DNA of 64,000 nucleotides from Xiphophorus maculatus (taxonomy: Eukaryota; Chordata; Actinopteri; Cyprinodontiformes; Poeciliidae). Each line of letters starts with the position of its first letter. Positions within the stretch are counted from its first letter, which is position 1. The position numbers and the translations under genes were made by a program. Positions 8,901-62,313 of the stretch are shown piece by piece. The DNA is taken from positions 5,126,501 through 5,190,500 of the forward strand of contig NC_036444.1 of NCBI RefSeq assembly GCF_002775205.1, given 5' to 3'. The notes under the pieces were generated by a model that worked only from the letters and a program-made list of their open reading frames with translations, was not told where the DNA came from and did not search any database.

Positions 8901-10069
8901 TGCTCCTCTTCTTCAGGTTCTGGGCTTCGCTGCTACAGGTGTGCGGATTACACGGGTCGCTGCGAGAACGTGCAGGAGTGCACATTTGAAGACTCGTGCA
9001 TCTCTCTGAGCGATCAAGGTCGGTTTAACTAGACTGTACTTACACACACTTTCATACCAAAGAGCCTTCTATAGGACCCAAGATGACATGTTAGGGTTTT
9101 GGAGACTTCTCTCAGCATTTTGCGGCCTGCTTTAAAGGTGAACTTGCTTAAATGACCAGACCTGGGCTCTTCTGCAGCTGTTTGTCCTCTTAAAATCCTT
9201 TATCAGATGAATAAGCTTCTTCAATTCATTTTCTTCAATTAGCTTTTTAGATTATACTTCTTCACTCTCACTTTATACCAAATTATTTATTTGAAATTTA
9301 AACCTACAGCGTCGTATTAAGGCCATTGTAAATAGAAAAAAAGAAGCGTAAGTTTCAGCCAAAAAACTCAAGATATTTTCTAGAAAATAATTGGAAAATT
9401 TTGAGCTCCAAAAGTCGGAAATTTGCTAGAAAAACATCTGAAATTTTGATCTTAATTCCAGAAATTTTCCAGAAAAGAATTGAGTTTGAAAAGTTGAAAA
9501 TTTGACAGAGATATTAAAAATCTTCTAGAAATAAATTGGAAATTTCTGAGTTTGAAAAGTTGCCAGATTTGACTTTTGAGACTTTTCAAAAGTAAAACAT
9601 TTGTGACATTCAGAACTCAGACATTTCCAAGTTTTTTCTAGAAGATTTCTGAAATTTATATTAAAACTTCTGATTATTTTCTAGCAAATTTTAAAGTTTT
9701 TTGGCAAAAGTTTACTCCTCTATCTACAGTGGCCCTGATACACCGTCATACAAACCTCCACCACAATGTTCCCCTCAGGATTTTAAGACTTTTATTTCTT
9801 TTTTTGTCTTGTTATGTTTAAGTTTAATATTCGGACTCTGCCCAGGTTCTCAGGTGTTCTGTGTTACAGGTGGGAAGACGATCCGGCAGTGTATCCGGTA
9901 CACAGACTGTGATGTGTCCCGTCTCACCCAGATGTTCCCGTCCATCTCCAGATTCACGTACAGGTGCTGCAACAGTAACCTCTGTAACTCGGGCTCCACG
10001 GCCCCCGCAGCCGGCCTGGTCTTGGTTCTGCTGTGGTCCCTGTTGAGCCTTTGGTGGTTCTGGTTCTGA
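5997..10069 (+). CDS. cd59: CD59-like (Ly6/uPAR family) GPI-anchored glycoprotein, 3 coding exons
   Basis: Exons 5997-6051, 8917-9018 and 9870-10069 join in phase 1 with GT-AG introns to give 118 residues. Residues 1-19 form a signal peptide (MKRCLGLVLLLWSG...). The LU domain follows with ten cysteines (24, 27, 34, 40, 46, 60, 66, 85, 86, 91), opening LRCYRC and closing YRCCNSNLCN, the standard three-finger pattern. A Ser/Gly/Ala segment and a Leu/Trp-rich hydrophobic tail to the stop fit a GPI-attachment signal. CD59 blocks assembly of the complement membrane attack complex at the cell surface. The Trp of the human active face (W40) appears as Ile61 here. Poly(A) signal AATAAA at 10204-10209. 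The three-exon layout matches CD59, but a different Ly6-family member is possible. Confidence 0.75.
6052..8916. other. CD59-like gene intron 1, repeat-filled
   Basis: Contains a half-copy of palindromic repeat family C (about 6275-6440), unclassified AT-rich DNA with a short inverted repeat near 6825-6870 (AAGATTGAAAC phrases), and a nearly complete copy of repeat family E (about 7824-8806). The 69-codon frame at 7193-7402 has no recognisable content. Confidence 0.6.
7824..8806. repeat. repeat family E, copy 1 (ATTAATCGAT-rich terminal inverted repeats)
   Basis: The left end reads GGGCTGGAATTAACTATCAA followed by several ATTAATC and GATTATT phrases. The right end, reverse complemented, starts AGAAACGATTATTCAGATTA. 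Related copies lie at 16150-16660, 20915-21470 and, as fragments, near 28400-28470, 35475-35545 and 48955-49030. There is no transposase frame. The internal GAACCAGGTGAAGC and TTGCCTAAA... phrases recur between copies, showing one family. Confidence 0.5.
9300..9705. repeat. repeat family D, copy in CD59-like intron 2
   Basis: Reiterated phrases such as TTTCTGAGTTTGAAAAGTTG and TTTTCTAGAA in both orientations. The same material occurs at 13020-13640, 34360-34510 and 42560-42890. In two of those places it is the interior of an element with hAT-like ends. Confidence 0.5.
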
Positions 10070-19834: not shown

Positions 19835-22800
19835 ATGATCACCATGGAGCCCACCCTCCAACCGAGCCTGCAGCCGAACCTCCAGGAGAACTCCTACAAG
19901 AGTGAGTATCTGCAGCTCCTCTGGCTTCTGTCCTGCTGATGCACCTGTGACCTTTGACCTCTGACCTACAGTGACGGAGGAGGACGTGAAGAGGCTGATC
20001 CACTTCCGGGCCTCCAACGAGGTTCTGTTCACTGGGAAGAGGAATTCGGCTAAGATCGCCTGGAGGTGAGGAGGTCTCAGCATGGTCTGGGCCGAGTCAG
20101 GATTGGTTCTGTGGTCCAGGTCAAGGTCTTGTCCTCTGAGTTGGATTGAACTCAGAGGACACACCTGCACTTTTTTAAAAAAGTTTCATCAGTTTTTTTA
20201 TTGAAAAAATTTGATTTGGAAAAATTTTCTTTTGCCAGATTTTGTTATTTTTTGTTACTAAAATGAATTGTTGTAATTTTTGTCCTTAAAATACCAAAAA
20301 TTTCCACTTAACTTTATACTTTGGTTCATCTGATGATGTAATTTTTGTTTTGATCTTTTACTCAGTACCTGAGCAGACTTTTTACCAAAATACTTTTTTA
20401 CTTTTACTTGAGTAAAACTACGCTGAAGTCGTACTACTCTTACTGGAGTCTAATTTTTGGAAACTCTGCCCTCGTCTGGAAATACATCAGATTAAACCCA
20501 GAGACTCCTGCTGTAGAACAAATGAATCCAGAGTTTTGGCCTCGTTTTAAATTGTCCCGTTCGACGTCTGCTGCCCGTTTCATCATCCGTTTCATCATTC
20601 CCCACACATGAAGTCTATAAACTCTCCGTTCTTGGGTTACCTCAGTCTCAGATGTTATCCTCTGTCGCTCCTCAGCACCATCCTGAAGGGTTTGGGTCTG
20701 GAGGGGAAGCTGACGGCTGACCAGATCGCCAAGAAATGGGACAACCTGCGGACCAAGTATAAGGTGAGTTCAGGTTATAGAGGCATAATCAGCAATTTAT
20801 AAACTGTTTTTCACATCAGCACAAACTGCTGTTCAAGACAAAACATAAAATAATTAAAGAGATTGTGAGAGTTAAGCAATTTACAGAAAAATGCATGAGT
20901 AAGATAACTGGGTCTGTAACAATCAATCGCATTAATCTTGAGAAATCGGTTATTCAAATAATCGTTGACTTATTTAGTAACTGATTAATCTAGATACAAC
21001 TAGAGTACAAAAGGCTATTTGCTGAAAGAACAGCATATTCAGAGTAGTAATTTAACCTAAACTGCAAAAAAAAAAAATTATGGTTTGCATTTAAGATAAA
21101 AAAAAAAACCTGGTCTGTAAAAATGTTCTACTCAGAACCCCCTAAAGTGGCGTAGTTAAAGTTCACCTGTTTCAAATTCTGTAAAAACAAAACAAATCTC
21201 ATGTTAATGTTAGAAGACTGTATGTTTTAGCTGCAGATGACACAAATCATCAATCATTCACTAAAAGGATTCCTTTTTTGTTGCATTTAGGCAATAAAGT
21301 GTTTATTTTCTTATTTAAAATATTTGTAATTTTTAATATATTTCTAATATTGTATAAAATAAGCTTAAGTGGTTAAAAGAAAAATTAGAAAATGTGCCAG
21401 TTTTTGTTTAACGATTAAATCGTTTAGAATAAAGTAATCTTTAGTTGACATCCTAATTTATACCAGGAATGCACTGATGTTAAAATTTGGACTGATATCA
21501 GCATATTATGACCGATAACTGATATTTGTTGATATATGTTTGTACACCGATTAATCATCAGAACAATCAATTAGTGAGATAATTTTTAGTTAGAGCTCTA
21601 AAGATAATAGATATTGACATTAATAAAGGCAAATTAGATAAATAGATGCATCTGGATTTATTTTAAAACAAAAAGAGCAGCTGTGAAGGAAATTTTTAGC
21701 ACAAACAGAACAAAACCTAGTTTTAGACAGATAAACTGGACCCGACCAGTCACCGGTATATGAAAGGACTGATCTTTTTAAAGTGAGCAGGAAGACATTG
21801 TGATTAATATAAAACTGGTTTGTTTCTGGGTCAAACCTGAACGTTACGGTTTGATTTCTTCAGGTAAAACTCGTATAACTTTGGTTGATTTTAGCTAGAA
21901 AAAAAGCAGTTTTTTCCTCAACATTTTGTTATTTTTGTGTCATGTTGAGCTCAACATGTTTAATAGTCAGGATAAATGTAGGAAAAGACACTCAGTACCA
22001 GACTGCCATTGTCTAAAGGGGGCAGGGAATGCTGTGTCACCACTTCCTTCCTTCCTGTCTCGTATCCTGTGACCTGTCTTTCCTTTCTTTCTTCCTTCCT
22101 CTCTCATGTCCTTTTGTCCCTCGTCTTACATTCTTGTTGCCATTTTCCGTCCATGTGACCTTCATTTCTTCTTTTTTGTCTCTGATTTCTTGCGTCCTAC
22201 TTCCTTTCCTGCAGTACTTCCCTCTTTCCTGATTTTCTTCTTTCTTTTCTTGTGGCCTTTCCATGTCCGTTCTTTCCCTGTCATCTCTTCCATCTATGAA
22301 GATTTGACTCTGAATCCCAAAACCTGTTAACCTGGCTCTGGTTAAGAGGGGAGCAGAAAGGAAGATGCATGTGCTTTCTCTCATTCCCCCAAAATTAGGG
22401 ATCTAGAGTTTTGAAGATAAAATCTGAATAAAATGCCACCACATGTTTTGTACATCACCAGATGTTAAGATTCACAACAAGGTAGCGTAAAAAACAGCAC
22501 ATCTCATTATTTACCTATTAGAACAACCTGTTACTATATGTCTTATTTTTGATACTAATGGCTTGCCATACAGTCTATGGAGAAAAACTGGAAGTGGAAA
22601 AAGTAAGAAATTTGTCTGACCTTGATGAACTCTACTTTCCTTTACTTCCTTCTTTCCTGTCTGTCTTTTTTCTTTCCTTATGTCCTTTCTTATTTCTAGT
22701 TATGTTTTAAATTTTTCTAATATTTTTGCTTCTGTTTTACTGGCTCAATTGACCAATTTAGATCACTTTTCAAAAGCACACACACAGTTAGATATCATCA

Positions 22801-25800
22801 GCGTAAAAATGGTGAAGGACGTGAATAAAAATACTGAATAATATCGACTAGATGGCAGAATACAGGATGAAAATAGGAAAGTGCCCAGTATTGAGCCATG
22901 GGGAACCCCAATAATTTAAATAGTGTTAACAAATGGAGCACTTTTTAGCATTTACAGAGTAATTACTAACAGCAGCTGCTACATTAATAAGGATTTTGAT
23001 GGGTTCTGTTATCTTTTTGGGTCTTTTTAATCAACTCCCCTAAATATTCCTGCATTAAACCCTCTGCTGTAACAGCTGGATCTCTCACAGAACCAGCCCT
23101 GCTGTGAGGACGCAGTCAGACTATAAACCGGCTTTAGCTCATCATTTATTTATCCCTCCTTCAGATGTTTGAGTTCTGTTCGTGTAGCTCAGCGGGACGG
23201 GATGTGACCAGGGAATCTGCATAAACACAACACCGAGCTGCAGGGGTTTTTAATAACACAGCAGTGGAGCGGTTCTGGGTTTGCTTCATCTGCTGCTGCA
23301 GCCTTTTTAAAGCTCTGATGTTAGCTAAACTTCTGCAGGAGTTCATAAAGAAAAACAGAAATTTAGAGTAATTTCAGTAAAAAATGAGACAACACTGGTT
23401 TTTTTTTTTTACCATTTCAAAACTTTGGTAAAAATCTCCTACATCTTTCCAGATACCTGGATTATTTAGGGTGCATTCACACCAGTCATGTTTAGTCTGC
23501 TTTAACCAACTCTACTTCATTTGTCTAGAAAGTCAGGTTTGTTTGGGGACGCAGTTGAATCAAACAAGCGAACTCTGGTCCACCTAAAAATCTCAGTCCT
23601 GGTTTGGATGAAGTGAATTCTGGTGCGGTACGAATCCATATGTGGATGTCAAACTGGAAACCGCTACAAAAGCAGAAAGTTGACTCAAACACAAGGCATT
23701 CTGGGTAAATATGACCAAAACAAAAGCGAGAGCGCTGTTAAAATCTGATGCTACTCTAGGTCTGGACAATAAATCAATAATTGGACATATATCAATAGAT
23801 TATATGTCCAATACAATATTCAGTAATTTCACCGAACGCAGAATCGCACAGCATTCTGGGAAATGAAGGCAGAGGAAAGACTTTAGCCACTCAACCTTTC
23901 ATGGCTAGCTAAGATAGATTTGTGGAATCAACTGACTCACTCACTCTATTGTTACCTAGCAACTCTCTCACTCTGGTTACCTAGCAACTCTCTCACTCTT
24001 TGGTTACCTAGCAACAGCCTGTTGAGTAACTTGTGCAGCAGCAGTTTCAGGTTTCACCACTGTGCCTCAAAACTACTTAAAAGTAAAAGAAACAAAGGCG
24101 TGGAGTGAAAACTGTGGATAAAACAGGAACGCTCATGCCATCAGTTTGGCAATATTTCAGAAATTTAAAACAAAAAACAAATCAATAATTATCAGTATCG
24201 ACTGACATGAAACGCTTACGTCATGCTGCGTTTTTCAGCCGTATCATCCAAACCTACTCCACTCTGTTTTTGTTTACATTTCGTGAGGAAGGAAGTTTCT
24301 CTCAGTGTCTTCTTCAGACGTTTTGTGTCGTTTCCTTCAGTGGTTCTTTGTGCAGCGCCCCCACAGGCGAGGAGGAGAACAGGTTTTTCAATTAGTTCGG
24401 ATTGTTTGACCCAGTGCAATGAGAAAGAGAATTACAGCAGCTGAAAATGTAGCAAATGTTGCAATTTTGGTTCCCAATCAGGTGTGAAAACCCCCTTACC
24501 GCTTCTACCAGTTACTGCAGTTTCTTGTCTGAGCCTGCAGGGGTCACTGTGTTCCTCTTTCAGGACCTGAAACAGCCTTACCAGGGCCAGGAGCATCTTG
24601 GGGTCGTGGTGGAGTCTTGGCCCTGGTTCCACATCATGGACGAAGCGATGCAGGGCCGCCTGTTTAACAGCAGCCTGGTTCTGAGTCCGGACAGTCCCTG
24701 CAACGCAGCCCACCCCCCCGACTGCCAGCCCTGCCAGAACCAGGAGAACACGGACATCCTGGAGTTCCTCATCAAGACGGAGATGGACGAGACGGTGACG
24801 GGCGAGCCGGTGGAGGAAGACGAGCCGGTCCACGCCGAGGCCCCGCCCACTGGCGGCGTTCCCATGGGATGGCGGAGGATGACAGAGTGCACGTATAAAA
24901 GTAGGTGAACCTTCCTGAGATCGTTATATTAACACATCAACATAATGATTTGGAAAAAAAAATACTTTTATGAGTTATTTTACTATGAAGTATTGCTACT
25001 CTTACTTGAGTAAAATTTCTCCACCCACTGTGAGTAACTTAAATGAAAACGTTTGTTTTAGCCAAAATTCAGACAGACACACAAACCTGCAGTTTTTGTT
25101 AAAGTTTTATATTGAAAGAAACTATTTTGGAAAAATATTTCTTTTGCTTGATTTTGTTACAAACATTTTTCAGGGATGAAAATCTAACAGTATCACAGAA
25201 ATGAACTTGACTCTTTAGCTGGACTAACATTCACCATAAAATTGTGAAAATTGGAATTGCAAAAATAAAATTACTGAATAGAAACACGCCACCAGTTTTG
25301 ACAAAACGTTTTTGCACCAGGATGAGGTGGTTTTTTGGCTGTATTAAAATTTTGTGAATTTAACAAAATTGCAATGGAAACACTTTGTATCAGTCATGTG
25401 ATGAACAACCGGATGTGACAGGAACTGGTTGGAAGATGATAGTGCAGCATGTTTTGTTTTTTAGTGACTTATCACATGAACAAACTTATTCATGTGTGAT
25501 TTTAATTGCGTTTCTTACTAACTGGACATAGAATTGTGAATTGTGTTTTGTAGACATTAGCATATCGTCATAGTTTTGTGGACATTTGTAATGGAAACCC
25601 AGCTAGTGATTTTATTATTTTCACCTTGTGCTTCTGTTTCTAACCCGATTTTTCTGCCCAACAGTGACCGAGGCAGAAACCGAGAGGATGATCAAACTTC
25701 GAGCTGCAAACGAAGCGCTGTTCACGGGGAGAAAACACTCGGCCAAGCCAGCCTGGAGGTGAGATTCCCTCACTTTAAATTATAACTTTTTCAGCCTAAG

Positions 25801-28800
25801 TTAGAAACGTTGCCTTTGTTTTCCTCAGAGCCATCCTGTTCGAGCTCGGCCTGCAGGGGCGGCTGACCACAGAGCAGCTGGCCAAGAAGTGGGACAACCT
25901 GAAGAGGAGGTATAAGGTACATAAACCGCCTGGACCCCCAGAGCCTCCTGCAGCGATGCTGTAGGGAGAGAAATCTGCCCCAATATTACTGCAAGCAAAG
26001 AACATGTTCCAAAAATAAAAACTAGGAATCCACCAATATGGAAATGTTTAACATTGCTGTTAGAGTCGGTAACAGTTACTTACTGTCACATGACAGCAAA
26101 TATGTGACAGCCTCCTTCACTTCCCCCACAGAAGCAAACGGAAACAAGATGGAAATAAATACTGGTTGCTAATATTAGAACAGTTTTATTTACCAAACTG
26201 ACACAAATATGTAAAAAAAAAAAAAAAGACAAATCGGATATTGTACATTAAATGAATAAAAATAAAATAATTTCCAAACTGCATCATTGAAACTTTACAA
26301 CATGTATGCAGTAGTTGATCTACTTTTTTATAGTTTGCTATATTTATGGAGGGTTTTTTTTTCAAATTGTTTTTCAAATTTTAATTTTTTTCAGATTTAC
26401 TTTTTGCAAAAAAAGATTCTGATTTATTTATCTACTTATTTTACTGAATTTTATTTTTTTCCAAAAAATATAGAACAAATTTAACAAATTGCATTTTTGT
26501 CAATAATACTGGAACAAATTTCTCTCCATACAGTGAAGGCATCGAGGTGCCTGTGGAGCTCTGAGAGATCCAAAACACTTTGTCTGGCTTTTTACAACGT
26601 CTTTAAATTTGTGATATAAATGGTTCCAGGGGCAGGAAAAGCTTTACAGCACCAGCTGTTAATTAGAGCCTTACGGTGCATTCAGCCCTGTTTGGTCCAC
26701 TTTAATCGAACTCTGGTTCATTTGTCTAGAAAGTTCGGTTCGTTTTGTGAGGTGTGAACGAGCAATTGAACTCCAAAAAAGAAAACTCTGGCCCATCTAC
26801 AAACCTTGTTCTTTGTTCGGTTAAAGTGAGCTCTGGTGCGGTTTAAATGCTTATGTGAATCCAAGCAGACTGGAGACTGCTCCAAAAGCTGGAAGCAGAC
26901 TATAGTGCAGGGCATTCTGGGTAAATACAACCAAAACAAACATGAGAATTTAACCCTAGCAGGAGAAATGATTTATTGTCTTTTACCAAAGACAAAAGAC
27001 AAATCATACAACCGTTAAATTCTGATGATACTCCATTTTTGTTTACATTTTGTGAAGAAGGAAGTGTCTTCTTTTGAGGTTTTTGTGTTGTTTGATTCAG
27101 TAGTTGTTGGTGCAGCGCCCCCTCAGGCAAGGAGAGGAACAGTTTTTTCACAAGACTTGGTTCATTTGACTCAGTGCAATGTGAAAGTGAACTGCAGCAG
27201 CTGAAAATGTAACAAATGTTAGAATTTTGGTCCCCAATCTAACTGAATCTACCAGACCATCAGGTGTGAAAACTTCCTTAAATGATGGTGATGAGGATCT
27301 GTGTGCGTCTCCTCCAGGAGCTGAAGTTTCCGTCCCGCGGTGTGGAGGCCAACCCAAGCTCCTGGCCCTGGTTCTACCGGATGAACGACGCCATGGAGGG
27401 CCGAATGGCCAACGCCGCGCCCATCCTCGCTCCCATCGTGGAGGACGGAGACGAGGAGTGCGAGACTCTCTTGCCGACGCCAAAGAAACGAGCGCGGCGA
27501 AGCCGGGGCGGGATGGCCGAGTTCCTGACGGAGTCTGAGATGGATCTGTTGGTCGATAACGAAGAGAAGATCGGATCATCGGCTCTGGGAGATCTACATC
27601 GGAACACAGAGTTCACCTACAAATGTAAGAGACCGGAAACAGGAGGGGGTTGTTGTTGGGTTGTACCTCTCTGTGGATGAGTTCACTCAGATTAATGTGC
27701 CGGTGAAACTGGAAATGTCCACAGTAACAGAAGACGACACGAGGCGACTGATTGAGCTGCGAGCTGCTAATGAGGTTCTGTTCACTGGCAGGAGGAACAC
27801 GGCGAAACCTGCCTGGAGGTCAGGAATGTCAACACTTACACTAACATCACTGACGGAGACCAGGCGTCCCATCACTAATATAACAGGATTATTTTATTAC
27901 GTTGTGTTCAATTGATTTAATTGTGACATTTAATTGACCATCCTTCCTGTACGGCGAGAATGTGGGAAAATATTTTAATACAACTGAAATAAAGAACCAT
28001 TTTGTTGGTAAATCAATTAAACATAATATCAATAATCCTATTTTATTAGTAATAGAGCCTTGGTCTCCATCACAATCACAGTTGAAACACCTTTAATATT
28101 CATGATTCCAGCTAAGCTTCCTGTTTAAAAAGGTTTTGGTTCTGATTCAGGGGGATTGTGAAGGAGATGGGTCTGACTGGGAGGATAACTCCAGACCAGG
28201 TGGCCAAGAAATGGGACAACCTGAAGACTAAATTCAAGGTTTGTCCTAAAGTATCGACTGTTTTACTGTGAAAAATGTCTTTTTTTTCTCTCAAATTCAC
28301 AACAAACTTCATAAAGTTAGTAAATTTATTTATCTGACAGAAATTAACAATTAAAACCTGATTAAAAATCCCAAGGAAAAACTAAATAGGACAGATAATT
28401 AAGGCTGAAATGATTAATTGTGACAAATCGATTATTTAAATAATCGATTATTTAGTTATCGATTAATCGTTAACAGACACAGAGACTCAAAAAAGATCAT
28501 ATGTTGAAAAAACGATACGGTATATTTAGAACAGTAATTGGGACAATTGGGGAAATTATTTCTGTCATTTGTAATTTCTTTTTTTAGAAAAATAAAGCGA
28601 GGAAGAATTGATTCAAATTGGATCTAGTACAGAAAAATATTAAATGTTATTTTTAAACCATAATGCCCGACGTATCTGCACTGCAAAAACATAAAATCTT
28701 AACAATTAATTCTTGTCTAATATATAGTACAAATATCTTAGTATACTTGAAATACGACAAAACTAACTTACAAGTAACTTTTCAGAAAGATATAGGAACT

Positions 28801-31800
28801 TGTTTTAAGTAAATAATTCCTTAATATTGAAAAGTTCTAGTTTCACTAGCAGATCATTTCATTAATAACAAAACATTTTTCCCATGTTATAAGTGAAATA
28901 ATCTAGTACTTTTTCACCAATATAAACAATTATTAACCCAAACAAGCTCTTATCTGTTGCTGAGAAGTTACTTGTTAGTTTTGTCTTATTTCAAGTGAAA
29001 TAAGATATTTGTGCTAGAAACTAGACCAAAATTACTTTAATATTTTGCGTTTATACAGTGTGTTTCTTATAATTACTCCCAGATTCTCTGGAAACTGTTG
29101 CGAAGGTCATTCAATTATAAACTATGTAAATTTATCAGAATAAATCCGTCTTTTTAGTGCTGCTGGTTCTGAATCTTGTGTCCTGCCTGTGAAGGACCTC
29201 AAGTTTCCTCCTCGCGGTATGGAGGCCCAGACCAACCCGGCCTCCTGGCCCTGGTTCCAGTTGATGAGCGACGCTCTGGAGGGCCGGCTGGCCGATAAAG
29301 CCCCCAGAGTGACACCGGTGTGGACCAGCGAGGAGGACGCCGTGTTCGGGTCGTCCCCGCCCCCCGACTGTCTGATGGGGGAGCGGAGCGGCATGTCGGA
29401 GCTGGACAGCATGGTGGGCGGAGACCACGGCGAGGCCGACGCCACCGTCACCTACATCGACGCCAGCGGAGAGGAGTGCGCCACGCCGTCAGAGCTCTCC
29501 TACAAAAGTACGTACAAGTACTTTCCTGGTTCACACTCTATGATTTTCTTCATCTTTGTGTCTTTACTATTAATCAATAAGCCTGTCATGATAACACATT
29601 TTGTTGTCCCAGAAGTTATTGTGATAAATATAATAATATTGTTTTGAAGTCAGTTTTAAGTAATTTAATGATAATGGAATAATAATGCAAGAACACATTC
29701 TCAGAGATCATTAAACTTTAAATTTTAATGAACATTTAACATTGGAACTGGAAGACATTTTAATTACCCATTATATATCAACAAAACAACAGACACAACA
29801 AAATAAATGATTTATGAAGTTGCTGTAAACAAATTTGACTTTCAAACAAAAGACTTGTTGAGACCAAAACATCAGATTGAAGACATTTGTCCTACAGTTT
29901 TAGAGAAACAGGAGAAAAACTATAAATCATGCAAATGGAAATTGAGCTTGTTTTAATTGATCATTCTATTAATCGATTACTTTATCTTGTATGTACATTA
30001 CACAACTTTGCATAGCTCCTATTAAGGTAACCTAAAGAGCATGTATTTTGCAAAAATTTAATAATTTCTGCTCATTTTAAAATATTCTTTTGTTAAGGAT
30101 GAAATAATTTTATATGTAAATTGCACAGTACCACATTGCATCAACAGGTGGCGCAAATGTTTAATTTATTACTATTAATCTGAACTAAAAATAGATATTC
30201 TTAGTCAAAATCAACAATTAATATTTTGCTTAAAATCATATTCATGTTGGAATAGTTTAGCAGGAAGTCAGGACTTAATTATTTCATAAACTGGCCAATG
30301 TTCCGGTTTATCTCGGTCCGGTTTGTTTTGGATTTCTTATTAACACTAAAACTAACTGAGGTTAGATCAGTTTACATGCAAAACCCCTCGGATGGAGCTG
30401 CAGGAAACGTTTCCTCTGCTGTAATGATGTGGACACAAGCTGCTTATCTGATCTGAACTCATCCTGAATCCGTCTCATCTGTTTGTTCAGGAAGAAGGAA
30501 AATATGGGTCGCTGCTTCAGAACCTCCAAAATACGGGACAGATCCACCACAACGCCAGGCTTAACAACATGATAATGTGTTATCGTGATGTCAATGCACA
30601 ATATTTTTTATTTCACCAACATTTGAGATGAATCCACCTAAACAAGATTTAATTTGATTCTGCTCTGAATGTGAGTGAATGTAAGTAGTTACTGCCCATC
30701 TCTGGCCATTTCCATCTGACATGACAGATTAAAAAGAGGAATTTAATCAACATAATATTTTTATTTATCTCTTATTACTTACATCTTTCCAGCTGATGTC
30801 TTTAAAGCAAGATCGCAACCTCAAGCATAGTGTAAATAATGTCTTTAAAACTAATCCAATAGCAACTTGCATTTTTATTCTAAAGCACATTACTTATTTA
30901 TCATTAAGTTTTGTTTAAACAACTGGGTTAAATCGTTCTCACCTCCATGTCCAGTTAAAAACTCCTGGCACAAACTATAAAAAGCTAGAATCACTGAGAG
31001 TTTTCTTTTGTTCCCGTTACGTTTTATAGTTGCAGAGTCTCCGGTTCTTTGTACATTTATCCATGTAAGTCTATAAAATACATTTTTCGACGTAGCTGCG
31101 ATTTTTGACCGGAAGAATCGATTACAGACGAAGCACAGTTGCGCCACGCTTTCTACGTCGACATAATATTTTTATCCAGATGTAAGTCAGTAAGGAGAGG
31201 AGTGCCATCTAGTGTCTGTGAATACAAATTGCAGGCTAAAGTCAACATCCGGGCTTTACGCGGACCTTTGGCAACGGTATCAGTGATTCAGGGGGAAAAC
31301 GAACCAAACTTACCAGAGGTCAAACAGCGAGTAATTTCCAGGAACACGTGACTGCAGCGGCTCTCTGTTGCGTCTGCTTCCCAGTGAGCGACCAGGACAC
31401 CAGAAGGATGATCAAACTCCGAGCTTCCAACGAGGTGCTCTTCACCGGGAGGAGGAACGCTGCCAAAGCTGCCTGGAGGTGAGGCGGAGATGCTTCCTTT
31501 TGCAAAAAAAAATAAAAATAAAAATGAGTAGTGGTTCGTTAGATTAAAACCGGTTCCAGTCGGTTAGCTAAAAACTTAGAACATTTAGTGTTATAGTTTC
31601 GTCGCCATCCAGCAGAGGGCGCAGTTGGTCATCGTTAATAACCGGAGCCGTTGATACAAAAACAAAGATGGCGGAGGTTTCCAGAATAAAGAGAAGCGAT
31701 CCAAACGGTGTCCGGTTTGGGATGCAAAATGCACTTTGCGCGATGATAGAAAAGCCGTGGGTATAACGTAGAAAACAAAATAATTTAAAAAACATAAGAT

Positions 31801-33929
31801 TTTGATTTTGATGGCTGTCTGAGTTGATTTACTTCATGGAGTGAAATTTTGACATTCCTTCAAAGCGGTATTTCTGTTTAAGTATCTCTCTTTTCAAGGG
31901 TATTTAAGTTTTTTATACGTTTAATTTTTTTATCTTTTATATTTGTAGTCATCACCAAAAAGGTTCTTGTTTTTGTTATATATTCTTAAATATGTCTGTT
32001 TAATAATGTGAAAAAAACAACTTTTTCTGTTTATTTAGTCAGTATTTAATACAGCTGACACAAAAATGTCTCATTCAGCATATTATAAAAAACAGCCCTT
32101 TATGTGGTGGATAGACGGTTGGTCCTGTTGAAACAAGCAAAAACTCAGGAAGATCAGCCAACTTTAGATTAACTTATCAATGGATAACTTGCATCCCTAG
32201 TTGATGATGATGTTATGACCTGCTTCCTCAGAGCCATCTTGAAGGAGCTCAGCCTGCAGGGAAAAGTTTCCACCTACCAGATGGCAAAGAAGTGGGACAA
32301 TCTGAAGAGGAGGTACAAGGTGAGACATTCCTACCATCCTATCACAGGGAATGGTGAGGCTTAGTCCACATGTAGCTGGATATCTCTGAAAATTAATACA
32401 TTTTTATGTATTTTGGCATTTAATCCACATGAAAAATGACCTTTTTTTATCACTAAAAGTGATTATTTATAGAGACTCAACTTAAAAAAAACACCAACAT
32501 ATCCACATACTGGCTTTTACAAGATTCCCAGTCAACATTGTCTTGTGTTTTATTAACTTTAGGAGTTCTGGTTAGAACATATTTACAAACTAAGAAGTTT
32601 ATTTACTCTTAAATGCAAAATGTATATATTTTTGTACATTTACTTTTTTATTTGCATTCCTTCAGCAAATGGCCTTTTGTAGAGTTTGTTTTCTCCAGTT
32701 TTTGACTATTCAATTACTAAATTAGTTGATCATTAATTCAATAATCATGATTTACTCAATCGTTTCAACCCTATTTCTGTTGTGAGTCAGGTCCCTAAGA
32801 AAGCAGTATTCTGGAAAGTCAACTTTTTTTAAGCTTTACATCATGTTATAATGTTATTCCCTCATCAAAACAGACCTGGCGTGTTGCTTTGAATCTTTCA
32901 TGCATGTTTGAGAAATGTTTTAATTTCCATGACAACCATTCAGCTGTGCAAAACGTCTAAGTGGACCTAGCCCTGCCTATGAGACACGGCTCCTCCTCAG
33001 AGCTGCAGTTTACAAGCGCCCAAAGTCCTTGCAACTCCCTCACTGAGCTCCTTCAGACTAGCCAGCAGCAATTAGCAAACACCTGATAGAACTGAGCATC
33101 TGCTGAGCTCATTACAGGAGCTACTTCTCAGTGAAACACTGGTAGAAACGTTGTTAAAGGGTTAATAGAGGAGCCATGTTGCGATGACTTCCTGAAGGAG
33201 GAGTTTCAGAAAGAGCAGGAGTTTTTAAAGAGACAGAGACACAATTTTAAAACGTTAAGATGCACAGTCTTATCTGATAGTGTTTTTATAACAACTGAAG
33301 GTAACATAGTTGCTTAATTATGCTATAAAATGGGACTGTGTGCCACATAATACTGCCTCTTTAAATTTAATTGAAAGTGGTCTTGAACTAAATTTGGTGA
33401 AAGCTGCAGAAACCGTGTCCCACCTTCTGTTCAGGACCTGAAGTATCCTCCCGTTGGGATGGAGAGTGCTGCTGACAGCGCCTCCTCCTGGCCATGGTTC
33501 CACCTGATGAATGACGCCATGGAGGGGCGTCTGGCCGGTAGCGCCCCCCTCCTCACTCCTCTAACTCAGGATGACGACCAGCACCCAGACCCCGCCCCCA
33601 GACACAAGCTCCGCCTCCCTCCTGCGCAGCAGCCGTCCTCCTCCACGGACTTCCAGGAGCCGTGCGGCGGGACGCTGGGTGGACTGGAGCGGGAGTGGGA
33701 GGCGGTGGAGCGGGAGCGAGCGGCGTTGGAGCGGGAGCGGGAGACGGTGGAACGGGACCGGGCGGCGGTGCAGGTGGAGCGGCTGTGGTTGGACCGGGAG
33801 CGGGCGGCCGTGGAGCAGGACCGCGCCCTGGTGGAGCAGGAGAGGGCGGCGCTGGTCCGGGACAGGGAGGCGCTGAACCAGCGGGCCCTGATGATGAACC
33901 CTGTGGGACACCTGAACAGCCTGATGTAG
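19835..33929 (+). CDS. four-module tandem Myb/SANT-like (trihelix) DNA-binding protein, 13 exons
   Basis: Exons: 19835-19901, 19972-20065, 20676-20763, 24564-24900, 25665-25758, 25829-25916, 27318-27624, 27725-27818, 28151-28238, 29195-29507, 31385-31478, 32232-32319, 33435-33929. They total 2247 nt, 748 residues, all GT-AG and phase-consistent. After a 22-residue leader come four homologous domains at about 23-105, 196-275, 359-440 and 524-606. Each reads (T/S)xx(D/E)xxRxIxxRAxNEx-LFTG, AKxAWR, KKWDNLxxxxK, then SWPWF. This is a Myb/SANT-like (trihelix) fold: three helices, probably sequence-specific DNA binding in the nucleus. Linkers are acidic and variable; a basic PKKRARRSR patch lies in linker 2. 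Residues 668-734 form an Arg/Glu-rich coiled coil, likely for dimerisation. Starts at 19835 or 19844 are in frame; the second has the better context (ACCATGG). AATAAA at 35316-35321 is a possible poly(A) signal. I know no named vertebrate gene with this layout. Confidence 0.85.
20915..21470. repeat. repeat family E, copy 3 (opposite orientation)
   Basis: TCTGTAACAATCAATCGCATTAATC at the left, then CGGTTATTCAAATAATCG, GAACAGCATATTCAGAG, TCACCTGTTTCAAATTCTG and TGCAGATGACACAAATCATC, with a terminal GTGCCAGTTTTTGTTTAACGATT. These are reverse-complement counterparts of copies 1 and 2. It sits in intron 3 of the four-module gene. Confidence 0.5.
22029..22285. repeat. CT-rich tract (TTCC/CTTT) in intron 3
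   Basis: Pyrimidine-rich on the plus strand with CTTCCTTCCTTCCTG and TTTCTTCCTTCC runs. Frames on both strands here have biased composition (Ser/Leu/Phe, or Arg/Lys/Glu on the reverse) and are not genes. A smaller similar tract is at 22633-22690. Confidence 0.7.
23470..24497 (+). repeat. repeat family B, copy 2 (hAT-like MITE) with a nested insertion
   Basis: Left end GGTGCATTCACACCAG and right end CAGGTGTGAAAACCCCCTT form imperfect terminal inverted repeats. The interior matches copy 3 except for about 500 bp inserted at 23757-24253. The right end lies 66 bp before exon 4 of the four-module gene. Confidence 0.6.
23751..24259. mobile_element. insertion inside repeat B copy 2, flanked by CTACTC, with three X-box-like motifs
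   Basis: CTACTC at 23751-23756 and 24254-24259 bracket sequence absent from the matching position in copies 1 and 3, so this is a later insertion with a 6-8 bp duplication. It carries three perfect GTTACCTAGCAAC motifs at 23951-23963, 23976-23988 and 24003-24015. Paired CAATAATT..CA/TCAATAGAT phrases occur near its ends, but no clear terminal inverted repeat was found. Confidence 0.5.
25665..27624 (+). other. trihelix module 2 (exons 5-7)
   Basis: Exons of 94, 88 and 307 nt. Domain text MIKLRAANEALFTGRKHSAK, ELGLQGRLTTEQLAKKWDNL and SWPWFYRMNDAMEGRM. Its linker holds the only clear nuclear-localisation-like patch in the protein, Pro-Lys-Lys-Arg-Ala-Arg-Arg-Ser-Arg at about 27480-27506. The first and second exons are only 70 bp apart (25759-25828). 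Confidence 0.85.
26675..27280 (+). repeat. repeat family B, copy 3 (hAT-like MITE)
   Basis: Left end GGTGCATTCAGCCCTG, right end CAGGTGTGAAAACTTCCTTA. Landmarks: TTTGTCTAGAAAGTTCGG, AGGGCATTCTGGGTAAATA, TTTGTTTACATTTTGTGA, GTGCAGCGCCCCCTCAGGC. It ends 37 bp before exon 7 of the four-module gene. Confidence 0.65.
27725..29507 (+). other. trihelix module 3 (exons 8-10)
   Basis: Exons of 94, 88 and 313 nt. The intron before it is only 100 bp (27625-27724), with a weak pyrimidine tract before CCACAG; retaining it leads to an early stop. The split codon at the entry makes Leu here where the other modules have Met. The acceptor of exon 10 is GTGAAG, weaker than the others. Confidence 0.8.
28681..29057. 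repeat. palindromic repeat family C, intron 9 copy
   Basis: The two halves are inverted: AACTTACAAGTAACTTTTCAG...GATATAGGAACTTGTTTTAA on the left and AAGCTCTTATCTGTTGCTGA...GTTACTTGTTAGTTTTGTCT on the right, with CACTG/CTGCAAAAAC-like ends. Other copies: 6275-6440 (half), 34107-34830 (interrupted), 40565-40920, 46070-46323. Confidence 0.65.
29508..31384. other. intron 10 of the four-module gene
   Basis: AT-rich, no exon candidates. A segment at 29640-29950 (TTGAAGTCAGTTTTAAG, AATAATGCAAGAACACATTC, AAAGACTTGTTGAGACCAAA) reappears inverted at about 59190-59500, so it belongs to a dispersed repeat. The reverse 79- and 85-codon frames near 30.5 and 31.0 kb have no recognisable content. Confidence 0.45.
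31385..33929 (+). other. trihelix module 4 plus C-terminal coiled coil (exons 11-13)
   Basis: Exons of 94, 88 and 495 nt; the last includes the stop. SWPWFHLMNDAMEGRL is followed by a Pro/His-rich linker and then about 65 residues dominated by Arg-Glu-Arg and Glu-Arg-Glu in seven-residue steps (33680-33880), predicted to form a long charged coiled coil. The reverse frames across this GC-rich stretch are shadows. Confidence 0.85.
31568..32192 (+). repeat. repeat family F, copy 2, with CTCF-like and YY1-like motifs (intron 11)
   Basis: Same layout as 14383-15181: CCAGCAGAGGGCGC (31609-31622), AAAGATGGCGG (31664-31674), GTTTGGGATGCAAAA, GACATTCCTTCAAAGCGG, and the terminal block CCAACTTTAGATTAACTTAT. 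No coding capacity. Confidence 0.6.
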
Positions 33930-50227: not shown

Positions 50228-51132
50228 TCACTGTGTAGAACATCCCATCTTTTGCACTGCTGCTGCAGCTCCAACAATTGCTCCCAGATTAACTCCAACA
50301 CCAGCTCCAATAGCAACTCCTATTGGTCCTCCCAGAACTCCAACAGCAGCTCCAACACCTGCTCCAGTAGCAGCTCCAGCAGCAGCAGCCCCCAGAGTAG
50401 CACGCATAAATGAGTTGTCTTTCTCTGCCTGCCTTCTTGCATCTTCAGGATCAATTTCTGGATTTTCTCTGATTAATCGATCTACTTCTTGTTGCTTGGC
50501 TCTCTGCGCCTCTTTAAACATTTCATTGGTGTAGAAACTTCCTCCATTTCCCTTTACCAGTCTGTTGATCTTCTGCACCAGTCCCCTGACTTGACCAGGA
50601 TCCTCAACTGTGTTGTCAAAGACATGATATTTATCTTCAAATGTCTGGAAGAAGGCACACTGACTGATGAAATGCCGTAGAGGTCTGTGTTTTAGTAACA
50701 TTTCTCCTATTGCAATATTTTCCCGTTTTAGTTCGTCTCCATGGGTAAACAGGATCATAGTGTATGTGGCTGCTTCATTGCCAAAAATTTTCTGGATAAT
50801 TTTTAAGCTTCTTTCTTCTTCTGTGGTGAATCTGGTCGGCTGGAGCACAATCAGGAACACATGAGGACCAGGAGCCGCCAGGCAGATGCCTTTCGCAATT
50901 TCTTCCATAATCTCTTTATGACTTTTATTTGTATCAAACAGACCTGGAGTATCAATAACAGCCAGATTTAAACCATCAAAATCATTGATTTTCTTCTCAC
51001 AGACCGATGTCATAGAGGAAAAAGAGAGACAAGAATGAAAAAATCTTCCTCCCAACATGGTGTTTCCTGCTGCACTTTTTCCAACTCCAGTTTTCCCAAG
51101 AAGAACAATCCTGAGCGCCGTATCTTTATTAG
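50228..51132 (-). CDS. GIMAP family (AIG1-type) GTPase, terminal exon, with glycine-zipper tail
   Basis: The exon probably starts at 51132 after an acceptor (CCAACAG|CTAATAAAG). The frame extends 28 bp further but has no ATG there, so the start lies in an unseen upstream exon. Visible: P-loop GKTGVGKSAAGNT, DTPGLFDT (G3), the GIMAP box HVFLIVLQPTRFTTEEE, THGDEL in the G4 position, then the helical C-terminal part KINRLVKGNGGSFYTNEMF. After about 200 residues a helix rich in Gln, Glu and Arg leads into about 55 residues of Gly/Ala/Val with repeated GxxxG, probably membrane-inserting. It ends Gly-Cys-Ser-Thr-Gln. GIMAPs are membrane-associated GTPases linked to lymphocyte survival and immunity, and are expanded in fish. 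Reverse-strand poly(A) signal at about 50177-50172. Confidence 0.88.
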
Positions 51133-51734
51133 CTGTTGGAGAATTTGAAGACAACAACAAAGAGGGAGAATTTTAATTCTGATAACTTCAAAGTAACTTA
51201 AAATATGTCTAAGGATGCCAGTTACAGAATTAGATGTTTCTTTTTAGATGTATAGATTGGGAGGAGAATTTAGATGTTTAAATTTTCAGCTAATAATGTC
51301 TGCAGAAATATTTTTGTATTAGATTAATAGTTTTATAGACTTAGATCAACCCCAGTATTTTCATATACATGAGTTGCTATACTTTCAGTAACATTAGTAA
51401 GCTTGCACCAAGCTTATCTGAGCTCCTGCAAAAAATAATGTTGGCAGAGTTTTAGATTCCTCAAGAAAAGACACTGTGTCTCATTACACCGATGAAGTGG
51501 TTTCCACTCAGTCTTCCTTTAGATAAGAACTGTAGTTCTGGATGCCTGAAGTTTGCGGCTGTCTGAGTGGAATCTTTTCCCAGACGCTTCATCCTAGCAG
51601 CTGCTGCTTGGCTTCTTTGCTCATCAAACCCACAACTCACTGCCCCACCAGATGCCTTATTGTTCATAAGAACTGCTCTAATAAGATGTTGTGTCTGGGC
51701 AGAGAAAGTTAAATTAATCAATCTAGTTCTGCCA

Positions 51735-61073: not shown

Positions 61074-61609
61074 CCGAAAGTGGACTTTGTCTTTTCCATA
61101 ATGGTAGGGAAACGCTTCACTGGGACCAGTAATCTATTTATGTCAACAAAAGAATGACCTGGAATGACTTAACTAAAGTACAGAGTTAAATCTGGCAGGA
61201 AAAGGTTGGACTTAAAAGAAAATAGCTGTAAATAAGGTAACAGTCTGGTCAGTTTCAGGTATTTATCGAATGTTCATGAAAAGATATTAACTTGTCTATT
61301 AGCTGAACTATAGGACCTATTCTAAGTACTTCTTTGCTGTGTTTGTTATTTTTGCTGAACTGCAGCAAAGTATACAACAGTGTTAATTTCTTTAGAAGAT
61401 GTTAGCTACAAACTGAAATAGATTTTTGAGGATTATTAGCAAAGTTTAAAAGTATTGTTTTCTTTTTTTATTATTGTTTTTGGAATTGTCTACCTGTCAA
61501 ATAAATTTACTTCGAGATTAATAAATCTAACCATAACAGATCTGTTTGTCACTGACATCTGTTGAATAAAAATCACTCTCAGCTTATTTGTTTTCTAATT
61601 CTCCGACAG

Positions 61610-62313
61610 CTAAAGAGAAGACGAAGCTCAGGATTGTTCTACTGGGGAAAACTGGAGTCGGCAAAAGTTCATCAGTAAATACCATCTTAGGGAGGAAAGC
61701 TTGTATGGCTGAAAGTCATTCCTCTCTGACATCGAGTTATAATTTTTGTTATGAAAGTCATGACTTAAATCATGATTTAAGTCTGACTGTTATTGATACT
61801 CCAGGCCTGTTTCAGACACACAAAAGTAATGAAGAGATTTTGGGAGAGATTGGTAAAAGCATCAACATGGCGGCTCCTGGTCCTCATGTGTTTCTGATTG
61901 TGCTGCAACTGATCAGATTCACACCAGAAGATAAAGAAACCATGGAAATAATCAAGAAGTTGTTTGGAGAAGAAGCAGCCAGATACACTATGATCCTGTT
62001 TACCCAGGGAGATGCGCTGAAAATGGTAAACATTAAAATAGAAGATCTGTTAGAAAAATCCGAGCCTCTAAAACGCTTAATCAATCAGTGCTCCAGCTTG
62101 GAGAAATTTGAAGAGAAATATCATGTCTTTGACAACAATGTTAAGGATCCTGCTCAAGTCAGTGGACTGCTGCAGAAGATCAACAGACTGGTTAAGGAAA
62201 ATGGAGGAAGATGCTACACCAATGAAATGTTTGAAGAGGCACAAAGAGAAAAACAAGAAGAAATTAAACAACATCTCAGAGCAGTGAGAGAGAAGAGATG
62301 TGTTCTACAGTGA
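61610..62313 (+). CDS. GIMAP family (AIG1-type) GTPase, terminal exon, short C-terminus
   Basis: The exon starts at 61610 after CTCCGACAG|CTAAAGAG. The frame continues 22 bp upstream but begins with TTG, not ATG, so a spliced upstream exon is needed. Visible: P-loop GKTGVGKSSSVNT, DTPGLFQT, the GIMAP box HVFLIVLQLIRFTPEDKE, TQGDAL at the G4 position (paralogue: THGDEL), and EKYHVFDNNVKDPAQV. It follows its paralogue at 50.2-51.1 kb closely through NEMFEEAQREKQEEI, then ends after about 16 residues with REKRCVLQ. The Gly/Ala membrane tail is missing. The end is a polybasic stretch plus a CaaX-like motif, which could be farnesylated. 3' UTR sequences of the two genes are also similar (GGCTGCAG..TTATTAAAC). 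Confidence 0.85.

Follow-up and report, generated by a model that had tools for sequence, protein, structure and literature searches.

A gene of Xiphophorus maculatus appears to encode four trihelix modules in a row on one predicted chain, followed by a long helical tail. The gene lies on the plus strand at positions 19835-33929 of the window, by which we mean the whole 64,000-nt stretch that was analyzed (GCF_002775205.1, NC_036444.1, 5,126,501-5,190,500, forward strand). It looks real and little described, and to our knowledge trihelix proteins outside plants have been little studied. On balance, we think it probable that the product is a nuclear, sequence-specific DNA-binding protein whose four GT-1-like modules engage clustered short sites by avidity, and that its array arose from a one-module gene by duplication of an exon cassette.

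Results

Gene structure and exon cassettes

The gene model was traced from the DNA and consists of 13 exons, the coordinates of which are collected in Table 1. All 12 introns have GT-AG signals, their phases follow the repeating order 1, 2, 0, and the frame is open throughout its 748 codons and stop codon. The modules are three-exon cassettes. Exon A is always 94 nt and exon B is always 88 nt. Exon C is 337, 307, and 313 nt in modules 1 to 3 and 495 nt in module 4, where it also holds the tail and the stop codon. Each B-to-C junction is in phase 0. Cassettes 1 to 3 are bounded by phase-1 introns, so that in-frame duplication or skipping of a cassette is possible. These 13 exons, the 12 splice-signal pairs, and four PF13837 matches support the initial annotation of a single gene for four trihelix modules, here followed by a tail predicted as a helix, and the exons would be joined in a single mRNA.

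Table 1. Features of the four-trihelix gene, its flanks, and related loci. Positions are those of the window unless contig C17 is named.
Feature	Position	Strand	Content or basis
Exon 1	19835-19901	+	Start codon, short leader ending ..NSYK, phase-1 donor
Module 1 exon A	19972-20065	+	Trihelix helix 1 and start of helix 2; limits inferred from GT-1 alignment
Module 1 exon B	20676-20763	+	Remainder of helix 2, helix 3 (KKWDNL)
Module 1 exon C	24564-24900	+	Fourth helix (SWPWF), acidic linker 1
Module 2 exon A	25665-25758	+	Gene model, Pfam
Module 2 exon B	25829-25916	+	Gene model, Pfam
Module 2 exon C	27318-27624	+	Fourth helix, linker 2 with basic NLS-like PTPKKRARRSR (NLS inferred)
Module 3 exon A	27725-27818	+	Gene model, Pfam
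Module 3 exon B	28151-28238	+	Gene model, Pfam
Module 3 exon C	29195-29507	+	Fourth helix, acidic linker 3
Module 4 exon A	31385-31478	+	Gene model, Pfam
Module 4 exon B	32232-32319	+	Gene model, Pfam
Module 4 exon C	33435-33929	+	Fourth helix, linker, long charged helix, stop codon
E/R/A-rich C-terminal helix, residues 665-738	33675-33896	+	AlphaFold2, exon 13 peptide
Dispersed repeat, intron 3	24261-24479	+	79% identical copy at 27030-27239, intron 6
Inward-rectifier K-channel, three pieces	12.4-15.6 kb	-	Pfam
ILEI (FAM3-type), two pieces	43.2-44.5 kb	+	Pfam; one above, one below gathering score
One-module paralogue	C17:6662915-6664982	-	Four-exon model of 82, 94, 88, 732 nt; 331 aa
Second four-trihelix array	C17:12599262-12601708	one strand	PF13837, within 2.5 kb; exon span C17:12599251-12601796

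Two other ways of reading these exons were weighed. The model might have joined by mistake what are separate genes in tandem, or a duplicate that has decayed. Modules 1, 2, and 4 start with a Met codon, which in principle could mark a first exon of their own. However, each exon A starts at an acceptor with its first codon split by the intron (Leu in module 3 and Met in the other modules), all three exons C before the last end in a splice donor rather than a stop codon, a single leader exon and a single tail were found, the frame is unbroken, and the modules show a purifying pattern. We consider this reading highly improbable, and separate tandem genes were rejected on the splice signals, the phase, and the absence of any first or last exon inside the array. 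The second reading accepts one gene and holds that its main products are splice isoforms with one to three modules, always ending in exon 13, with the four-module chain as one of several. It draws on the symmetry of the three cassettes before the last, any of which can be skipped with the frame kept open, and on the paralogue described below, which shows that a chain of one module plus a tail is viable. Each module has retained its own conserved sequence, which is what use of all four would predict, a point that does not separate this reading from use of the full chain. We rate splice choice as unlikely, though the least so of the alternatives.

The rest of the window gave no convincing fifth module or pseudo-exon; the best leftover match has an E value of 0.005 and an internal stop. 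The initial annotation placed the gene between kcnj11l and FAM3, and this naming is borne out by the inward-rectifier K-channel and ILEI pieces on either side. The window also contains two AIG1 (GIMAP-type) GTPase frames identified by Pfam, at 50231-51172 (minus strand, 179.3 bits) and 61570-62310 (plus strand, 178.2 bits), and a CD59/Ly6-like exon at 9695-10066 (plus strand) that scores 32.1 bits with Pfam CD59, just under the cut-off of 33.9.

Introns 3 and 6 have two blocks in common. The copies at 24261-24479 and 27030-27239 each lie about 80 bases upstream of an exon C. The first is a genome-wide dispersed, high-copy repeat (4108 first-look candidates, 40 scored). The second block (23466-23724 versus 26671-26940) is 71% identical. 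These blocks were considered as a trace of duplication and are not taken as module history, the 24261-24479 copy being a dispersed repeat.

The modules are trihelix domains

Pfam profiles were used to identify the modules. Scanned singly, modules 1 to 4 match PF13837 (Myb_DNA-bind_4) with 37.2, 42.7, 38.0, and 38.0 bits, all above the gathering score of 27 bits, and the HMM check proposed in the initial annotation thus comes out in its favor for all four. The whole 748-residue protein matches PF13837 in four stretches with 137.8 bits (E = 1.6e-40). Neither a SCAN domain nor C2H2 zinc fingers were found among the 15 Pfam families that match the 748-residue protein at E values up to 1. A profile built from the four modules and the paralogue was compared with PDB sequences, and the best solved relatives are the plant GT-1 structures 2ebi (E = 3.3e-4) and 2jmw (E = 6.2e-4), aligned over profile positions 3-72; the next match has an E value of 0.51. 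The similarity is weak and the match needs the profile, as module 4 alone gives E = 0.14 with the solved GT-1 trihelix. GT-1 also differs in being a plant protein with one trihelix in the solved fragment.

Four landmarks had been claimed for every module. RAxNExLFTG, KKWDNL, and SWPWF are indeed present in all four, whereas AKxAWR holds in three, module 1 having AKIAWS. The 61-codon cores encoded by exons A and B are 59-70% identical in protein between modules. Their codon positions 1 and 2 are 77-83% identical, and their third positions just 42-62%. The likeness of the modules is therefore not due to chance, with protein identity and positions 1 and 2 kept while third positions diverged. Rough dN/dS values from these short comparisons are 0.31, 0.22, 0.16, 0.10, and 0.22 for five of the six pairs; in the remaining pair, modules 3 and 4, dS is beyond correction. 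As far as such comparisons go, the module cores fit old duplications held by purifying selection.

Exon C carries a further conserved element. The motif SWPWFxxMxxA is present in all four modules. AlphaFold2 predicts residues 20-29 of the exon 13 peptide as a helix with modest confidence (mean pLDDT of 72 for residues 21-30). An excerpt of PMC6686422 describes plant trihelix proteins with an amphipathic fourth helix, and SWPWF matches the start of this fourth trihelix helix. Each module would form a small basic helix bundle, with helices 1 to 3 from exons A and B and an amphipathic fourth helix from exon C.

Helix 3, with the pattern AKKWDNL(K/R)xx(Y/F)KxLK, is the likely recognition helix. 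With segment limits set by eye, it is the most alike of the three segments among the modules, with a mean identity of 0.70 versus 0.66 and 0.59. Between the modules and the paralogue, with the same kind of limits, the loop/helix 2 segment has the highest identity (0.57), followed by helix 3 (0.55) and helix 1 (0.38). That helix 3 is not the best-kept segment in the comparison with the paralogue counts against the favored reading of the protein, and so do the modest PF13837 scores of the single modules.

Linkers

The modules are strung together by acidic linkers of 73-80 residues. The net charge is +3 to +8 for the modules and -6 to -11 for the linkers. The initial annotation described the linkers as completely divergent, which is too strong. 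The sequence (T/S)YK closes each of linkers 1 to 3, and a weak EFLxxxEMD segment (BLASTP E of about 0.01) is common to linkers 1 and 2. The basic stretch in linker 2 may be a nuclear signal, and it sits at a similar place to TRKRRKV in the linker of the paralogue.

The C-terminal tail

The tail is predicted by AlphaFold2, run on the single sequence with no alignment, to be a 74-residue helix (residues 81-154 of the exon 13 peptide). The block means of pLDDT are 87, 97, 98, 98, 99, 99, and 95 over residues 81-150 and 76 over residues 151-160. In its heptads, one position is V, L, or M in 11 of 11 cases, but three and four residues later the helix mostly has E/D and R. The best fraction of hydrophobic a/d positions, with Ala left out of the count, is 0.57 for this tail compared with a 95% level of 0.50 in shuffled sequences. 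The same fraction in the paralogue tail is 0.50, which equals its own 95% shuffle level. The GCN4 zipper gives 0.80, above the tail of the four-module protein.

These values qualify the earlier description of the tail as a coiled coil. The helix is predicted and its heptad pattern exceeds the shuffles, but it has half the hydrophobic core of a normal coiled coil. The proposal of eight domains per dimer is weak and unproven for the same reason, since each heptad of the tail is hydrophobic at just one of its two core positions. The prediction would suit a weakly formed coiled coil as well as a charged helix on its own. The helix could space the protein or associate with itself.

A one-module paralogue in the same genome

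The whole genome (704 Mb, 101 contigs) was searched with the protein, and the best 60 of 177 candidates were scored, giving 50 matches. Among these, a single match to a domain part lies outside the window locus, at C17:6663434-6663649, where a tail match adjoins it in the same frame; the remaining outside matches in this set cover the tail region only. The hit lies in a four-exon gene model with one trihelix domain (PF13837, 34.5 bits) and an E/R-rich C-terminal stretch. The paralogue resembles the four-module gene in several respects. Its first exon ends in TEFTYK in the same phase as exon 1 of the four-module gene, both sharing the final YK. Its domain exons are also 94 and 88 nt with phases 1/2/0, its fourth-helix motif is SWPFF, nearly SWPWF, and its tail is of the same E/R-rich type. 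It differs in having one module, which is 43-51% identical to the four modules over 61 residues, and the modules are nearer each other (59-70%) than to the paralogue.

A second search used residues 1-203 of the paralogue. All 18 candidates were scored, and the 15 matches are the paralogue itself, the four-module gene, and one match at chance level (E = 8.4). Two loci of the family were thus found in the genome, one with one module and one with four. The search could miss distant split-exon relatives, as four pieces of the four-module gene itself have E values of 0.37-0.74 and two of 2.4-2.8.

The paralogue bears on where the array came from. Given a one-module gene with the same phases and tail type in the same genome, the array most simply grew, and probably did grow, from a one-module gene by repeated duplication of the three-exon, phase-1 cassette. 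The direction would follow from the modules being nearer each other than to the paralogue; cassette loss in the paralogue may instead have occurred, as the tree of trihelix domains described below leaves the five family rows unseparated. To order the duplications, 15 topologies rooted on the paralogue as the presumed outgroup were compared, with the protein, the full codons, and codon positions 1 and 2 as data sets. The AU test rejects none of the 15 at 0.05, and the best tree differs among the three data sets. Helix 3 reads TK/RR/TK/RR in module order, which might hint at a duplication of the pair of modules 1 and 2 into 3 and 4; the topology tests neither support nor reject it.

A different source for the array would be a recently domesticated Myb-like protein of a PIF/Harbinger transposon, amplified in tandem. 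PIF/Harbinger elements encode Myb/MADF-like partner proteins, which gives the proposal its starting point. The two family members have their introns in common and just two loci were found among the candidates scored, unlike a recent element, and we regard this origin as very doubtful compared with descent from a one-module gene.

Other trihelix arrays in the genome

A genome-wide PF13837 search gave 23 matches, 11 on contig C17 and 12 on other contigs. It undercounts, as both the four-module gene and its paralogue are missing from the matches, their domains presumably being interrupted by introns. Four of the C17 matches form a second array on one strand. Their exons of 363, 360, 339, and 354 nt have AG and GT signals, and every one is in phase 1 at both ends. 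They are compatible with a single gene of four trihelix cassettes, possibly with further exons in between. The C17 array is like the four-module gene in having four trihelix domains in a row as cassettes between phase-1 introns. It differs in that each domain has one exon and belongs to a separate trihelix branch. Two further groups of matches, each on one strand, lie on C17, four at 12.839-12.844 Mb and three at 12.858-12.861 Mb; they may belong to one or two additional multi-trihelix genes.

A tree of 15 domains was built from the window family (five rows) and ten of the 11 C17 matches, the dropped match being a short fragment with a stop; it took none of the 12 from other contigs. Three domains with a stop inside the PF13837 stretch entered the tree truncated where their open frame ends. 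The ten C17 domains split from the window family with 100/100 support. Of the 12 inner branches, 1 is starred and 8 are open, and the window-family rows are unseparated. The four-module gene is not alone in having four successive trihelix domains, and from the exon and domain patterns, amplification of trihelix cassettes seems to have happened more than once.

Discussion

The four-module protein is best compared with trihelix and SANT-type proteins that carry more than one domain. ZSCAN20, ZSCAN20-like, and ZSCAN29 are vertebrate proteins with SANT (trihelix-type) domains. These proteins differ from the four-module protein in having SCAN and zinc-finger parts, which it lacks. Their domain motifs look more like those of the C17 array than those of the four-module gene. 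The initial annotation held that vertebrate trihelix proteins carry one domain. This does not hold in general, given the four-trihelix array on C17 and an opossum ZSCAN20-like protein that an excerpt of PMC3706607 describes with a second SANT domain. Plant GT-2 type proteins have two trihelix domains and a fourth amphipathic helix, and the plant family includes a long C-terminal helix able to form a coiled coil, according to the excerpted text of PMC6686422. The likeness lies in more than one trihelix per chain, the fourth helix, and the long C-terminal helix in the family. GT-2 differs in being a plant protein with two domains rather than four, and it is likened here by description, not by sequence. 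A well-described four-trihelix vertebrate protein, which would have spoken against the novelty claimed for this layout, did not turn up in the excerpts of open-licence PMC literature that were searched. A steelhead study reports up-regulation of a "myb/SANT-like DNA-binding domain-containing protein 4" (PMC7901748), and nothing in the excerpt ties it to the four-module gene.

The domain family and the basic charge of the modules suggest how the protein may work. As the four helices 3 are alike, clusters of short, mutually similar GT-type sites are the most likely target of the array. Each site would be bound weakly, and affinity and selectivity would be gained from contact with several sites at once. 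It is plausible that, as suggested earlier, the protein would recognize a long or repeated DNA site.

Protein binding is a further capacity of trihelix and SANT-type domains. The modules could mainly be protein-interaction domains of the SANT/MADF type, in which case the protein would serve as a scaffold on chromatin and not as a reader of DNA. The stretches that match PF13837 also give weaker Pfam matches to MADF and other Myb/SANT families, and the aromatic fourth-helix motif is kept in all four modules and nearly so in the paralogue, both of which would suit a scaffold. The closest solved relative is, however, the DNA-binding GT-1 trihelix, and the modules are basic, with helix 3 their most alike segment. 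We therefore hold the scaffold reading to be quite unlikely and keep DNA binding as the favored one.

The arrays on two branches invite a broader and decidedly speculative proposal, to which we give little weight. Trihelix domains of this fish genome would have been amplified into homotypic arrays at least twice, in two branches, by duplication of phase-1 cassettes. The products could make up a class of nuclear factors that read repeats. They would count or bridge sites that occur in clusters, for example in satellites or transposon families, and splicing would determine how many modules each chain has. If this is true, the homotypic trihelix arrays of fish would be a counterpart in logic to tandem zinc-finger arrays.

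On the favored reading, this gene shows clearly how one DNA-binding domain can become four inside a single gene. Its one-domain relative is still present in the genome, and the exon phases agree with such a path. Should the array read clustered sites, avidity and spacing in trihelix DNA recognition could be studied in it as a natural system.
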